Source: Chloroflexus aurantiacus J-10-fl (GTDB taxonomy: Bacteria; Chloroflexota; Chloroflexia; Chloroflexales; Chloroflexaceae). From it: DNA of 64,000 nt. Made by a program: the position numbers and the translations under genes. This document shows, piece by piece, positions 3,301-60,585 of this stretch; the stretch's first letter is position 1; every line of letters begins with the position of its first letter. The notes below the pieces were generated by a model. It was given only the letters and a program-made list of their open reading frames with translations. It searched no databases and was not told the origin of the DNA. The DNA is taken from positions 1,922,001 to 1,986,000 of the forward strand of contig NC_010175.1 of NCBI RefSeq assembly GCF_000018865.1, in the 5' to 3' direction.

Positions 3301-4467
3301 ATGTTTCCACTTGTTACCATTACCGGTGAGCCATTTGAGCGTGGTCAGCAGTACGGGGCAGCGACGGCAGCACTCATTCGCCACAGCATTGCCAGCTATG
3401 CCCGCTTGTTTGCGTATCGGCGCGGAATGGATTGGGAAGCGGTTCAGCAGGCAGCTCTGGCTTATGAACCACTGTTGCATGATGTAGCGCCTGATTTACT
3501 CACCGAGATGCGAGGGATTGCAGTGGGTGCCAGTCGCACTCTGGCTGAGATCATTGCGTTGAATGTGCGTACCGAGTTGCTGGCCGGTGTCGGGGTTGGT
3601 TTTCATCATCCTGAAGCAGCGGCTGCGCTGGCCCGCAATCGAGCGGCGGGGGTTCCCCAACATCAAGAGCAACTACCAGCAACACCGGCGACCGGCAGTG
3701 ATGATGGTGAATGCACCACCGCTGCGGCTAGCCCACCGGCCACCGCAAATGGTCGCGTCTGGCTGGCCCAAACCTGGGACTGGCAGGGTGATCAGCGTGC
3801 CGCCTGTGTCTTGTTGCGCGTGAGCGGTCCTGACACACCTACACTGCTGACGCTCACCGAAGCAGGGATGGTAGCGAAAATTGGTCTCAATGAAGCCGGG
3901 ATTGCTGTTGGCCTTAATCTGCTCCGTTCACGCGCTGACGGTCAACAGCAGGGAATGCCGGTTCACGTCCTGTTGCGGCAGATGCTACAGTCAACTGATA
4001 CCGTAACAGCGCGCCGTCTGGTCAGTCAAATCCCAGCAGCCGGTTCATCGTGTATTACGCTGGCCGGTGCCGATGGTGAACTGGTTGCGCTAGAGTTGAC
4101 CCCTACCGGTATTGCTGAAATACCTGCTCAAGAAGGACTGCTGGCGCACGCCAATCACTGCCTCGACGGAGGAACTGCCGCCGGTGAATGCCCGTTGGAA
4201 CCAACCTCAACGACGAGAGAACGGTATGGACGAGCGTGGGAACTCTTGCACGCTGCGGCGGGCCAGATTGATCTGGATGTATTACAGGTAATTCTTCGCG
4301 ATCACGACGGTGCGCCCCGCTGTATCTGCCGACACCCCGATCCGCGCGTGGCAGCGGTTGATCGCAACGAGAGCGTTTGTGGTGTCATCATTGATCTTCG
4401 CGGGCGTACAATGCACGTTGCCGCGAATATTCCCTGTCAGGCGCCGTTTGTGCCGTTCATGCTTTGA
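3301..4467 (+). CDS. Peptidase C45 / acyl-CoA:6-APA acyltransferase-like hydrolase
   Basis: This 388-residue protein belongs to the C45 family of N-terminal nucleophile (Ntn) hydrolases. Its best-known member is fungal acyl-CoA:6-aminopenicillanate acyltransferase, but bacterial members are mostly of unknown substrate. The N-terminal ITGEPFERGQQYG is the family entry motif. The likely self-cleavage nucleophile is Cys138 in DDGECTTAAA, followed by ANGRVWLAQTWDWQ, the characteristic strand after the nucleophile. The start ATG at 3301 follows CAACAGGAGAAC. An insertion at about residues 110-135 (Gln/Pro/Thr-rich) precedes the cleavage site and may be the linker removed on maturation. It stands alone, with repeat-filled DNA on both sides. 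No signal peptide, so a cytoplasmic amidohydrolase is likely. Confidence 0.85.
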   Translation: MFPLVTITGEPFERGQQYGAATAALIRHSIASYARLFAYRRGMDWEAVQQAALAYEPLLHDVAPDLLTEMRGIAVGASRTLAEIIALNVRTELLAGVGVGFHHPEAAAALARNRAAGVPQHQEQLPATPATGSDDGECTTAAASPPATANGRVWLAQTWDWQGDQRAACVLLRVSGPDTPTLLTLTEAGMVAKIGLNEAGIAVGLNLLRSRADGQQQGMPVHVLLRQMLQSTDTVTARRLVSQIPAAGSSCITLAGADGELVALELTPTGIAEIPAQEGLLAHANHCLDGGTAAGECPLEPTSTTRERYGRAWELLHAAAGQIDLDVLQVILRDHDGAPRCICRHPDPRVAAVDRNESVCGVIIDLRGRTMHVAANIPCQAPFVPFML

Positions 4468-4470
4468 GGA

Positions 4471-4612
4471 GATAAAAGGTAGAAGATAGGAGATAGAAGA
4501 TAGGAGATAGAAGATAGGAGATAGGAGATAGAAGATAGGAGATAGAAGAATAGAAGATAGGAGATAGAAGATAGGAGATAGAAGATAGGAGATAGGAGAT
4601 AGGAGATAGAAA
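4471..4612 (+). repeat. Heptanucleotide microsatellite GATAGAA/GATAGGA
   Basis: About 140 bp of imperfect 7-bp units, GATAGAA and GATAGGA, mostly alternating as a 14-bp double unit and purine-rich on the plus strand. It begins within ten bases of the stop of the C45-family gene. It is non-coding. The minus-strand reading (Tyr-Leu-Leu-Ser repeats) is a by-product. Confidence 0.85.
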
Positions 4613-16400: not shown

Positions 16401-16991
16401 AATGGAGGCAATCTGTCCACCGATTGAGGCGATCTGACCGCCAATCGAGGCAATCTGTCCACCGATTGAGGCGATCTGTCCACCGATTGAGGCGATCTGA
16501 CCGCCAATCGAGGCAATCTGCCCACCGATTGAGGCGATCTGTCCACCGATCTGGGTAACATCCTCTAAACCAGATTGACCGGCATCGAATTCAAAGGTAT
16601 TCGTGGCACCACCCTGCCCGGTTGCCGGATCAACCCCACCACCGAAGACCAGATCGTAGTCAGCAGTCAAGTTGGTGAGTTCAATCGTCACCAGCGAACC
16701 TGGGGCACTAATATCGAAATAGAAGTAGTCAATATCGATAGAAGAGGTAATCACACCGGTAATCGGCTGTCGCCAGCTATCGGTGCGACCGGACGCAATT
16801 TGTTGGGCCGAAACACCGGGCGGCGTGATCCGGTTATTTGGCTCGATCTCGGCAATTTCCGGTAAATTGGTGATCTCAGTGAGACGCACCGGTGAAGGTG
16901 AAGCCGCGGTTGCCGGTTGCGGACGCATATCCAACGCCATCGGCGCCACAAGAAGAGCGAAACACACCAATGCGAACAGAAGGCGTTGCAT
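13446..16991 (-). CDS. Large secreted C25 (gingipain)-like protein
   Basis: This 1181-residue protein starts at ATG 16991, with AAGGAG 6 bases upstream, and a clear signal peptide (MQRLLFALVCFALLVAP, cleavage near ATAAS). Residues about 55-240 resemble a pre-peptidase C-terminal-type sandwich (DYFYFDISAPGSLVTIELTN) interrupted by seven IGGQIAS heptads. The central part (about 320-770) looks like a C25/caspase-like fold (NIVLVGGDEIIPFFRLPD, then YYSVGCHSG with a candidate catalytic Cys and GNTGYGYG). Distal beta-rich domains follow. The tail has two YLP-type motifs, LFLPVI and LYLPIV, as in many Chloroflexota exported proteins. Protease activity is inferred only; the catalytic His is uncertain. 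It lies 32 bases downstream of the cyclase gene, so it is probably in the same operon. Confidence 0.72.
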   Translation of the reverse strand: MQRLLFALVCFALLVAPMALDMRPQPATAASPSPVRLTEITNLPEIAEIEPNNRITPPGVSAQQIASGRTDSWRQPITGVITSSIDIDYFYFDISAPGSLVTIELTNLTADYDLVFGGGVDPATGQGGATNTFEFDAGQSGLEDVTQIGGQIASIGGQIASIGGQIASIGGQIASIGGQIASIGGQIASIGGQIASISVNPGNNDEQIEIIVWQPGRYFVAVAPSNAGETSSQPYRLTITLERSTLQSLGPAPHVQFLTDRPDPDVTTLYIINSARMQGVYPGELTAINAITTTLSSSTGYSGLTQLVWGESENALILEKGAVIDLANLEVITGTLPFSQLLNDWSQPANQSNPLYANYLAQIIDHVIEAAIAPAGNGLSRDVRVRYRMRANNDSNLGNETNQTTPYPNVRNIVLVGGDEIIPFFRLPDLTTIANEADYLDYLKTIDPNTNGASLISPNNPLGAALRNRMLLSDNPYGADRPYRFYGFPLFVPRLAVGRIVERPSEIADFLRRNAPGFGEENIYLRDDFYYPRSLSITGYDFLIDGANAISRTLQQATSISVTKRVLNNNTWNRAQFEAEWLEQPLDTPGFFSSPLEFYSDTQTLVSSLNAHFDHWQLIPAVSGSGNPNFPADRILSVGYSSGFPSAIPSSSCDFYPSICPGFFYNTLYYSVGCHSGYNVPYLAIDQSLGPRIDFYAADFAQAFNRHAGNWIGNTGYGYGTLDGVDYSERLAALLTQELVRNEVRPDPMAENGETYVGRSIGEALVNAKLRYLRTSLGLNAYDYKVLAITTLYGLPWKRIFVDNPLSAPVEDLNAELPAGDRTAPTPIAGSQLTRTITFTINYDTNYLEPTRSGQRIRLDASNFTISDTFLLASTFNVTPTVTILNNNLIGMPGLPAFTYDITALSGSDDDSERNPLVVRDIIFVGGQYNTVNNFNPTITQIVTETFEPLITTTIEPDFSAGIGFWVPDRFFGHSRTEGDNGPRDTLISTAAQFRATDGVTGTLRTYTQLVFQVLYTDPEAEDAEEALADQTPPVIERVRIAGQDVNLQSVSTLIEVFVSDPDNPTNPQVTLTGVYLADDNVTWTPLTFSQDSQNPRRWTASVPRPWPDVRLIITAIDQAGNSVMYTAKGQFTPPTYQLFLPVINRNQSALSGDDDAGGSAMGGQLYLPIVSQDAAKLVRE
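16404..16550 (-). repeat. 21-bp coding minisatellite, seven units
   Basis: Seven exact-length 21-bp units (147 bp) encode seven consecutive IGGQIAS heptads within the C25-like protein. Units differ only at a few mostly synonymous positions (for example TCCACCGAT versus ACCGCCAAT). The variants are ordered in a way that suggests duplication of blocks larger than one unit. Confidence 0.95.
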
Positions 16992-26836: not shown

Positions 26837-27529
26837 CGAATGTCTACGACAAGTCTTGGTATCAGAATAGTGACACGGTGTTACGAAGTCGTTACCAAAA
26901 GGTTAAGATAGAGCCTGAAGTTTCAATTTTGCCCGGTGACACTAGAACTTATTCCAAAAAACAGCTACCAGAAGCTATCTCAATTTATTACTGACAGACT
27001 CGGTGATTGTGACAAGCCCCACAGTATCCTCGTCGCCAGCAGGATCAACGCCTGCCACGAACCGGATCGTGAGCACAGCCGTTGCGGCAGCATGGCTGCC
27101 GCACTCTACACCGCGCAACACGCGCATAACGAGCGGGCAAGGCAGCTAATCCAGCGCGTGATGGCACTGGAGACAGGCATAAACCCTTCGCGCTGTCATA
27201 CCGGTAGACTGGGAGCAGGATATACTGTCGTTGGTGATTGGCAAGCGTTCATGAGCCTGTGTGATGGTTGGGTAGCATGATAGCGCAGCTTTTATGAAAT
27301 AACCCAAATTGCTACCTTTATCACCACAGAGACACGGAGGACACAGAGGATGGGTATAACCTGGGTTACTACAGTGAGGCGTGACAAAGTGCGGCCATAG
27401 GAACTGGCTGCTCCTCGCATCGTTCATGCGGTTACGCCACACGGTGTTGCGTGCAATGTCGTGATGTTCCTGGCAGTCAGCCTCCGTGGCCTGCTCACAA
27501 TATAGATAGCAACTCAGGTGAAATAAGTT
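26837..27529. other. Intergenic region with repeats A and B
   Basis: No gene is supported. A family B hairpin core (GCGGCAGCATGGCTGCCGC) lies near 27082-27100, and a short-form family A repeat at about 27300-27505 in the inverted orientation. Confidence 0.55.
27300..27505 (-). repeat. Repeat family A, short form, inverted
   Basis: It reads CACCACAGAGACACGGAGGAC, then GGAACTGGCTGC, a CCTGGCAGTCAGCCTCCGTGG stretch and CTGCTCACA. The same words appear in the opposite order and strand in the 53.3-55.2 kb array. It lacks the roughly 100-bp inner segment of the 331-bp form. Confidence 0.65.
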
Positions 27530-36723: not shown

Positions 36724-37023
36724 AAAAAAATCTCTCGACCGAACTGGTCGAGAGACGGGAAAAACCGCGGTGCCACTCTCGTTCGCCGCCGCTCACGCAA
36801 GCGACGCACTCTACAGGTGCTGTCGGCAAAGCCGCTTCACACCTAGCGCCCTGATAACGGTGGCGTCTCCGGCAGCGACTACTGCGGGACAAACCCGGTT
36901 CGCCGTGCGACTCACAGGCCCATTCACGAGCGCCGAACGTGCCGATCTCACACCATCATCGGCTCGCTGGATTGTCGCCACACTCGCTACTCTTCCTGAT
37001 CAACGTCGGTTATTCTTTTACGT
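36724..37023 (-). promoter_or_regulatory. T-box riboswitch, tryptophan-specific
   Basis: On the minus strand the leader holds the T-box GAGTGGCACCGCGG (36778-36765), then a terminator: 10-bp stem TCTCTCGACC/GGTCGAGAGA (36755-36731) and seven Ts (36730-36724). Stem I elements lie upstream: GATCAGGAAGAGTAGC, GGTGTGAGATCGGC and a specifier stretch GTGAATGGGCC with a candidate UGG (Trp) codon at 36922-36920. Uncharged tRNA-Trp would pair with the specifier and the T-box and prevent termination, turning on trpB. The order and spacing match known T-boxes. Confidence 0.93.
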
Positions 37024-53119: not shown

Positions 53120-53310
53120 AGACGCTCCTTATCGCTATCTGTCTTGTCTTTCTACAGCGTCAGTATGCCACGATCTGGCATAGCTGGCAAATTGGTCGGC
53201 AGGTGTTCGCCCAGGCCACAATTGCCGGTGGCGAATGTGATTAGATTCCTTTGACCGATAATTTGCTGTATCAAATCCGGTCGGTAAAGTGTGGTTAGTG
53301 CTGATGGTAT

Positions 53311-55196
53311 GATAATCCAGGTTGCCACCTACACTGTGAGCAGGCCACGTGAGGCTGACTGCCATGATGAACAGCACGACCCTGCGCCCCACATCGTGCA
53401 GCGTACCTGACCGGTATGAATCGTTTGGGTCGCAGCCCGTTTCGTAGACGCACGACGTCACGGCCATCTGGGATGCTCATCCGCCGTGTCGCTGTGGTGA
53501 TAGAAGGGAGCACCCTGGGTGACGATCTATCCGCGTGCATCCGCCAAACCCGCGTCCATCCGTGTTCCACCCCTCTCCCTGTCGCGCTCAACGCTCCGCA
53601 CCGCTGTGGTGACGTAAGATGGCAACTTGGATTATGATAATGATAATCCAGGTTGCCACCTACACTGTGAGCAGGCCACGAAAGACTACCTGCGATGATG
53701 AACAGCACGACCCTGCGCCCCACATCGTGCAGCGTACCTGACCGGTATGAATCGTTTGGGTCGCAGCCCGTTTCGTAGACGCACGACGTCACGGCCATCT
53801 GGGATGCTCATCCGCCGTGTCGCTGTGGTGATAGAAGGGAGCACCCTGGGTGACGATCTATCCGCGTGCATCCGCCAAACCCGCGTCCATCCGTGTTCCA
53901 CCCCTCTCCCTGTCGCGCTCAACGCCCCGCACCGCTGTGGTGACGTAAGATGGCAACTTGGATTATGATAATGATAATCCAGGTTGCTACCTACCCTGTG
54001 AGCAGGCCACGTGAGGCTGACTGCCATGATGAACAGCACGACCCTGCGCCCCACATCGTGCAGCGTACCTGACCGGTATGAATCGTTTGGGTCGCAGCCC
54101 GTTTCGTAGACGCACGACGTCACGGCCATCTGGGATGCTCATCCGCCGTGTCGCTGTGGTGATAGAAGGGAGCACCCTGGGTGACGATCTATCCGCGTGC
54201 ATCCGCCAAACCCGCGTCCATCCGTGTTCCACCCCTCTCCCTGTCGCGCTCAACGCTCCGCACCGCTGTGGTGACGTAAGATGGCAACTTGGATTATGAT
54301 AATGATAATCCAGGTTGCTACCTACACTGTGAGCAGGCCACGAAAGACTACCTGCGATGATGAACAGCACGACCCTGCGCCCCACATCGTGCAGCGTACC
54401 TGACCGGTATGAATCGTTTGGGTCGCAGCCCGTTTCGTAGACGCACGACGTCACGGCCATCTGGGATGCTCATCCGCCGTGTCGCTGTGGTGATAGAAGG
54501 GAGCACCCTGGGTGACGATCTATCCGCGTGCATCCGCCAAACCCGCGTCCATCCGTGTTCCACCTCTCTCCCTGTCGCGCTCAACGCTCCGCACCGCTGT
54601 GGTGACGTAAGATGGCAACTTGGATTATGATAATGATAATCCAGGTTGCCACCTACCCTGTGCGCAGGCCACGTGAGGCTGACTGCCATGATGAACAGCA
54701 CGACCCTGCGCCCCACATCGTGCAGCGTACCTGACCGGTATGAATCGTTTGGGTCGCAGCCCGTTTCGTAGACGCACGACGTCACGGCCATCTGGGATGC
54801 TCATCCGCCGTGTCGCTGTGGTGATAGAAGGGAGCACCCTGGGTGACGATCTATCCGCGTGCATCCGCCAAACCCGCGTCCATCCGTGTTCCACCCCTCT
54901 CCCTGTCGCGCTCAACGCTCCGCACCGCTGTGGTGACGTAAGATGGCAACTTGGATTATGATAATGATAATCCAGGTTGCCACCTACCCTGTGCGCAGGC
55001 CACGTGAGGCTGACTGCACGCTGCGCACAACACCGTGCAGCATAACTGAACTGTATAAACCATGTGGATAGCAGCCAGTTCCCTCAGACACGCTCCTTCA
55101 CGCCTTACGGTAGCAACTCGAGTTATGCCCATCCTCTGTGTCCTCCGTGCCTCTGTGGTGATAAAGGTAGCAACTTGGGCTATGATACGTTCAGCT
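53311..55196 (+). repeat. 331-bp tandem array, five units plus diverged sixth
   Basis: Units start at 53311, 53642, 53973, 54304 and 54635, exactly 331 bp apart and almost identical. A sixth, shorter and clearly diverged unit runs from 54966 to about 55196. Units 1, 3 and 5 carry GTGAGGCTGACTGCC after the CAGGCCAC word; units 2 and 4 carry GAAAGACTACCTGCG. So the array is A-B-A-B-A, amplified as a 662-bp double unit. It spans no gene; the repeated open frames on both strands are by-products. Confidence 0.95.
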
Positions 55197-57959: not shown

Positions 57960-57962
57960 AAT

Positions 57963-58295
57963 TAAGATAATCCAGGTTGCCCCCTTACGTCACCACAGCG
58001 GTGCGGATCGTTGATCGCGACGGGGGGATGGGTGGAACACGGATGGACGCGGGTGAGGCGGATGAACGCGGATAGATCGTCACCCAAGGTGCTCCCTTAT
58101 ATCACCACAGAGACATGGAGGATGGGCATACCAGATGTGCGTGACGTAGTGTGTCTACGGAACTGGCTGCGACCCAAACGATGCATACCGGTCAGGTACG
58201 CTGCACGAGGTTGTGCGCAGCGTCGTGTTGTTCATCCTGGTAGTCAGCCTTCCGTGGCCTGCTCACAGCATAGTTGGCAACCTGGGTTAAGATAG
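57963..58295 (-). repeat. Repeat family A, long form, inverted
   Basis: A single 330-bp copy, inverted relative to the 53.3-kb array and more diverged. It retains the CACGGATGGACGCGGGT, GCGGATAGATCGTCACCC and CACCACAGAGACATGGAGG words. It begins 3 bases after the sortase stop. Confidence 0.8.
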
Positions 58296-60360: not shown

Positions 60361-60585
60361 ACCCCCGCTCAAGTTGTCACCTACGCTATGAGCAGGCTAT
60401 GGAGGCTGATGGTCAGGATGAATAGTACGAAGCCGCACTCAATACCGTATGGCGTAACTGCACGAACGATATGGGGTGCAGCCAGTTCCTGTAGACGGCT
60501 ACGTCACATCTCTCGGAAGCAATCCGAGTTATCTACATCCTCCGTGTCTCTGTGGTGAAATAAGGTAGCAACTTGGGTTACCCTC
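60361..60585 (+). repeat. Repeat family A, short form
   Basis: About 225 bp in the same orientation as the 53.3-kb array: TATGAGCAGGCTATGGAGGCTGATGG, GGTGCAGCCAGTTCC, then TCCTCCGTGTCTCTGTGGTGA and GGTAGCAACTTGGGTTA. It lacks the inner roughly 100-bp segment of the 331-bp form. It lies in otherwise featureless DNA between fabZ and the 7-TM gene. Confidence 0.7.

Follow-up and report, generated by a model that had tools for sequence, protein, structure and literature searches.

A tandem array of putative IS982-type MITEs between asnS and an M20-type peptidase gene in Chloroflexus aurantiacus

The window analysed here, a 64,000-nucleotide stretch of the Chloroflexus aurantiacus J-10-fl chromosome (NC_010175.1, positions 1,922,001 to 1,986,000), contains a tandem array of ~1.9 kb, flanked by asnS on one side and an M20-type peptidase gene on the other, that holds no recognisable gene of its own. 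Tandem Repeats Finder reports a period of 331, with 5.2 copies, 97% matches and 0% indels, at window positions 53309-55017; the in-register long units number five (53309-54963), at spacings of 331, 331, 331 and 331 bp, and a shorter unit follows them. The array as a whole, from unit 1 through unit 6, is bordered on both sides by TATGATA, and a 13-bp junction, TATGATAATGATA, is identical at all five places between element ends (Table 1). Elsewhere in the window we observe a match to a T-box leader at 36748-37012 (Rfam RF00230, just above the gathering score), a 63-bp (3 x 21) tandem repeat at 16405-16550, and the 7-bp repeat AGGAGAT in about 20 copies at 4467-4609.

Table 1. Window coordinates of the array features and of solitary copies of the same element family.
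Feature	Position	Strand	Basis or remark
Left flanking target duplication TATGATA	53308-53314	.	Sequence; 7-mer equals right flank; TANNNTA duplications at dispersed copies
Unit 1, long-subclass core (318 bp), variant A	53315-53632	+	Copy search and unit alignment
Unit 2, long-subclass core, variant B (usual long-subclass state)	53646-53963	+	
Unit 3, long-subclass core, variant A	53977-54294	+	
Unit 4, long-subclass core, variant B	54308-54625	+	
Unit 5, long-subclass core, variant A	54639-54956	+	
Unit 6, short-subclass element, 16-bp deletion, left end type A	54970-55180	+	
Right flanking target duplication TATGATA	55181-55187	.	Sequence
13-bp junction TATGATAATGATA	53633-53645, 53964-53976, 54295-54307, 54626-54638, 54957-54969	.	
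A/B diagnostic segment of unit 1 (recurs each 331 bp)	53350-53363	+	
Solitary long-subclass copy, inverted	57968-58287 (approximate; wider limits 57961-58294)	-	Target duplication TAAGATA/TATCTTA
Solitary short-subclass copy	27300-27518 (end approximate)	-	
Solitary short-subclass copy	60370-60580 (start approximate)	+	

Alignment of all units bears out the first-pass annotation where it described five near-identical 331-bp units alternating between two variants in the order A-B-A-B-A, followed at the right edge by a sixth, shorter unit without the inner segment. Units 1-5 are 97-99% identical and vary at 11 of 331 columns; six of these are the substitutions that separate A from B, all within 14 bp (unit offsets 42, 43, 46, 49, 50 and 55), and the remaining five, with states across units 1-5 of CCTTC, AACAC, AAAAC, CCCTC and TCTTT, show no such alternation. 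It is quite improbable, in our judgement, that the unit count is an artefact of assembly through collapse or expansion of the repeat: units so alike, in a published genome assembled with phrap (PMC3150298), lend this idea some footing, but the units are distinguishable at their 11 variable columns, the array is short, and the same report describes 11-fold coverage and the correction of mis-assemblies.

We likewise find it very hard to credit the repeat as a functional RNA or a coding repeat. Each unit does contain a 73-aa ORF on the + strand, but the period is not divisible by 3, and copies found elsewhere in the chromosome carry indels; for an RNA, the region yields no Rfam match and its predicted folding is little better than that of shuffled sequences (z = -1.15), such that both candidates were rejected. 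Of 12 positions with promoter-like matches, only 9 are repeated from unit to unit; these matches were not taken as evidence, and no host function is indicated for the array.

The unit belongs to a dispersed family. Used as queries against their own 5,258,541-bp genome, the 331-bp unit and a short copy each return at least 51 matches, both counts being lower bounds because each search scored 40 candidates, and the two match lists, merged by hand, give at least about 55 loci outside the array. The family falls into two subclasses, one with a long core of ~318 bp and one with a short core of ~211-224 bp; both have the inverted ends ACCCAAGTTGCYACC, and neither core contains a transposase ORF. A 20-mer end pattern has 89 matches in this genome, as against 0 for a reversed-pattern control, and occurs in background numbers only in seven other Chloroflexus genomes. 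At chromosome positions 2108594-2109005, two short-subclass copies lie head to tail with few bases between them, and a tandem arrangement is thus also found at a locus other than the array. What is apparently a separate MITE family occurs in another Chloroflexota genome (G378), where elements of ~157 bp have inverted ends close to those described here.

Among the 32 copies for which both ends were recognised, 11 are flanked by an exact repeat of at least 5 bp, which is exactly 7 bp long in seven of the 11, with TANNNTA as the preferred target; 10,000 shuffled pairings of the flanks gave 0.69 on average and at most 5. Flanking duplications of 2-10 bp, as looked for in a MITE, are present, mostly at 7 bp, and point to insertion by a transposase.

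As to parentage, a search of 400 Chloroflexota genomes with the 17-bp end pattern identified three near-identical elements of ~930 bp in one other genome (G373), which have these ends on both sides, identical to those of the dispersed copies, and which encode a 273-aa protein scoring 172.8 bits against the NCBIfam IS982 transposase model (NF033520, cut-off 130). IS982 relatives in Ardenticatenia and Pseudanabaena share the same ends on both sides, exactly or with one mismatch, and several further relatives have a matching end on one side. Members of the IS982 family mostly have ends that begin AC, and their direct repeats, when present, measure 2-10 bp, with 7 bp common (Fayad et al. 2020, PMC7335449); the ends described here also begin AC and the duplications are in range. 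Unlike those family members, the array units and the dispersed copies are without a transposase gene; this genome gives no match over the curated NF033520 cut-off and yielded no autonomous partner bearing these ends, and the IS982 relatives checked in the same taxonomic family (G001 and three others) have different ends or none that could be found.

Judged from sequence, the array unit and the dispersed copies are a putative non-autonomous, MITE-like element of IS982 type: their terminal inverted repeats match those of IS982, they are short and lack a transposase gene, and they are present in multiple dispersed copies. An autonomous partner, absent from this genome, is usual for a MITE but is not a structural requirement, and may have been lost. 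Since neither this genome nor the family relatives checked hold such a partner, we infer mobilisation by an IS982 transposase from remote relatives.

A comparable case is MITECca01 of Cardinium, an IS982-derived MITE of about 240 bp (PMC9769881), which likewise combines IS982-type inverted ends, no transposase and many dispersed copies; the parent ISCca4 is, however, still present in Cardinium, whereas here the parent is absent, the copies differ more in sequence, and a tandem array has formed at one locus. Tandem repetition has also been associated with a bacterial MITE in P. gingivalis, although there (PMC4596501) a minisatellite lies inside the MITE, while in the present array it is the complete element that is repeated.

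The sixth unit (54964-55187, 224 bp including flanks) had been proposed as a possible ancestral copy, a suggestion that finds no support in our comparison. Its left 54 bp, from 54964, are identical to unit 5, after which 16 bp are missing and a different but related sequence follows; over its length it is 83% identical to a short-subclass copy elsewhere in the same genome (G000:3338655-3338900), and the A variant is native to the short subclass. On its sequence, unit 6 is a member of that separate subclass and not an ancestor of the long units.

The two subclasses also offer an origin for the A and B variants. At the six A/B sites, the A-like state is found in every one of the 25 dispersed short copies and the B-like state in 9 of the 11 dispersed long ones; together with the short-type unit 6 and its A-type left end, this suggests that the A units are long elements that were given a short-type left end. 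The donor of the A segment would most simply be unit 6, though the A-like state of the other two dispersed long copies means that it may instead have come from a long copy elsewhere. As the 16 bp absent from unit 6 are present in the A units, either unit 6 was shortened only afterwards or a close relative of it acted as donor. On the left, the transferred stretch does not seem to start at the same place in units 1, 3 and 5 (offsets 25 and 31), which suggests more than one exchange.

How, then, did the units multiply? The array units are 97-99% identical to one another and 87-92% identical to the dispersed long copies, and seven private states occur in all five of them and in none of the 11 dispersed long copies; the units thus resemble one another more closely than they do any dispersed copy, as unequal exchange would have it. 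These states and the five identical 13-bp junctions fit amplification in situ better than repeated insertion, and the lack of any IS982 transposase over the cut-off in the genome means that recombination at the locus accounts for the array better than ongoing transposition. We consider it probable (roughly 0.8) that the array is the tandem amplification of a non-autonomous IS982-type MITE. The earlier proposal of an amplification with little divergence is upheld to this extent.

The same proposal held that the amplified piece was a 662-bp double unit, and this part is not established. On such a reading an A-B pair would have been multiplied by repeated unequal exchange, with unit 6 as a remnant. 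The A-B-A-B-A order agrees with it, and offset 25 is also compatible with a B-A pair, at units 2-3 and again at 4-5; but with three A and two B units, one of the 10 possible orders alternates by chance, sites 18, 31, 264 and 287 show no 662-bp periodicity, and unit 6 is of a separate subclass. Given the one-in-10 chance order and the non-alternation of most remaining sites, conversion events that reshuffled single units explain the order equally well, and growth by double units is a tentative option that we are inclined to doubt.

Another conceivable route is one in which the transposase assembled the array directly, each new element inserting beside an existing end. The preference for TANNNTA targets is compatible with this, as are the TATGATA sequence next to the ends and a second locus (G000:4939287-4939684), where the right end of an incomplete long copy adjoins a complete copy that is more divergent; the 13-bp junction there, at 4939328, is the reverse complement of the array junction with one difference, and this is the one other locus at which the junction recurs. 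Re-use of TATGATA by an insertion should, however, leave spacers of 7 bp and not 13 bp, all five array junctions are identical, the private states are lacking in the 11 dispersed long copies, and no transposase over the cut-off is encoded; we therefore think this route unlikely. The junction at 4939328 may be read as two neighbouring insertions into similar targets, yet its recurrence counts against a chance adjacent insertion, which does not predict it. We entertain as an unlikely but conceivable extension that, starting from a short and a long element side by side, recombination has made a satellite-like array out of an orphaned MITE, and that the 13-bp junction arises specifically through the IS982 pathway and not by chance.

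The M20 neighbour gene is encoded in seven other Chloroflexus genomes, and in the six of these for which the upstream DNA could be compared, asnS precedes it with only short intervening DNA and no array; G006 falls outside the gene-order comparison, its contig ending within the M20 gene. No exact empty site could be aligned in the asnS-M20 interval of the relatives.

Returning to amplification of the MITE in situ, we propose the following sequence of events. The short and long subclasses would have been spread into TANNNTA sites by an IS982-type transposase that the genome no longer has. A long element would then have landed immediately next to the short unit 6, as the junction suggests, creating the 13-bp TATGATAATGATA sequence. 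Recombination between the paired left ends, for which the subclass diagnostics argue, may next have placed the short-type left segment (A) on some long units, the others keeping their native B segment; the loss of 16 bp from unit 6 would be later than the donation of the A segment by unit 6 itself or by a close relative. Unequal homologous exchange would finally have multiplied the unit together with its junction to five, consistent with the near-identity, the identical junctions and the private states.

Much of what the array contains is ordinary mobile-element debris, together with a tidy case of recombination between two sub-types; the overall picture of how bacterial repeats arise is unchanged by it, and the subclass diagnostics provide a small worked example of two neighbouring MITEs seeding a tandem array. 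A literature search for MITEs of Chloroflexus found no report, and the IS982-type family of this model anoxygenic phototroph is apparently undescribed; naming it could help to annotate the intergenic repeats of Chloroflexus aurantiacus.
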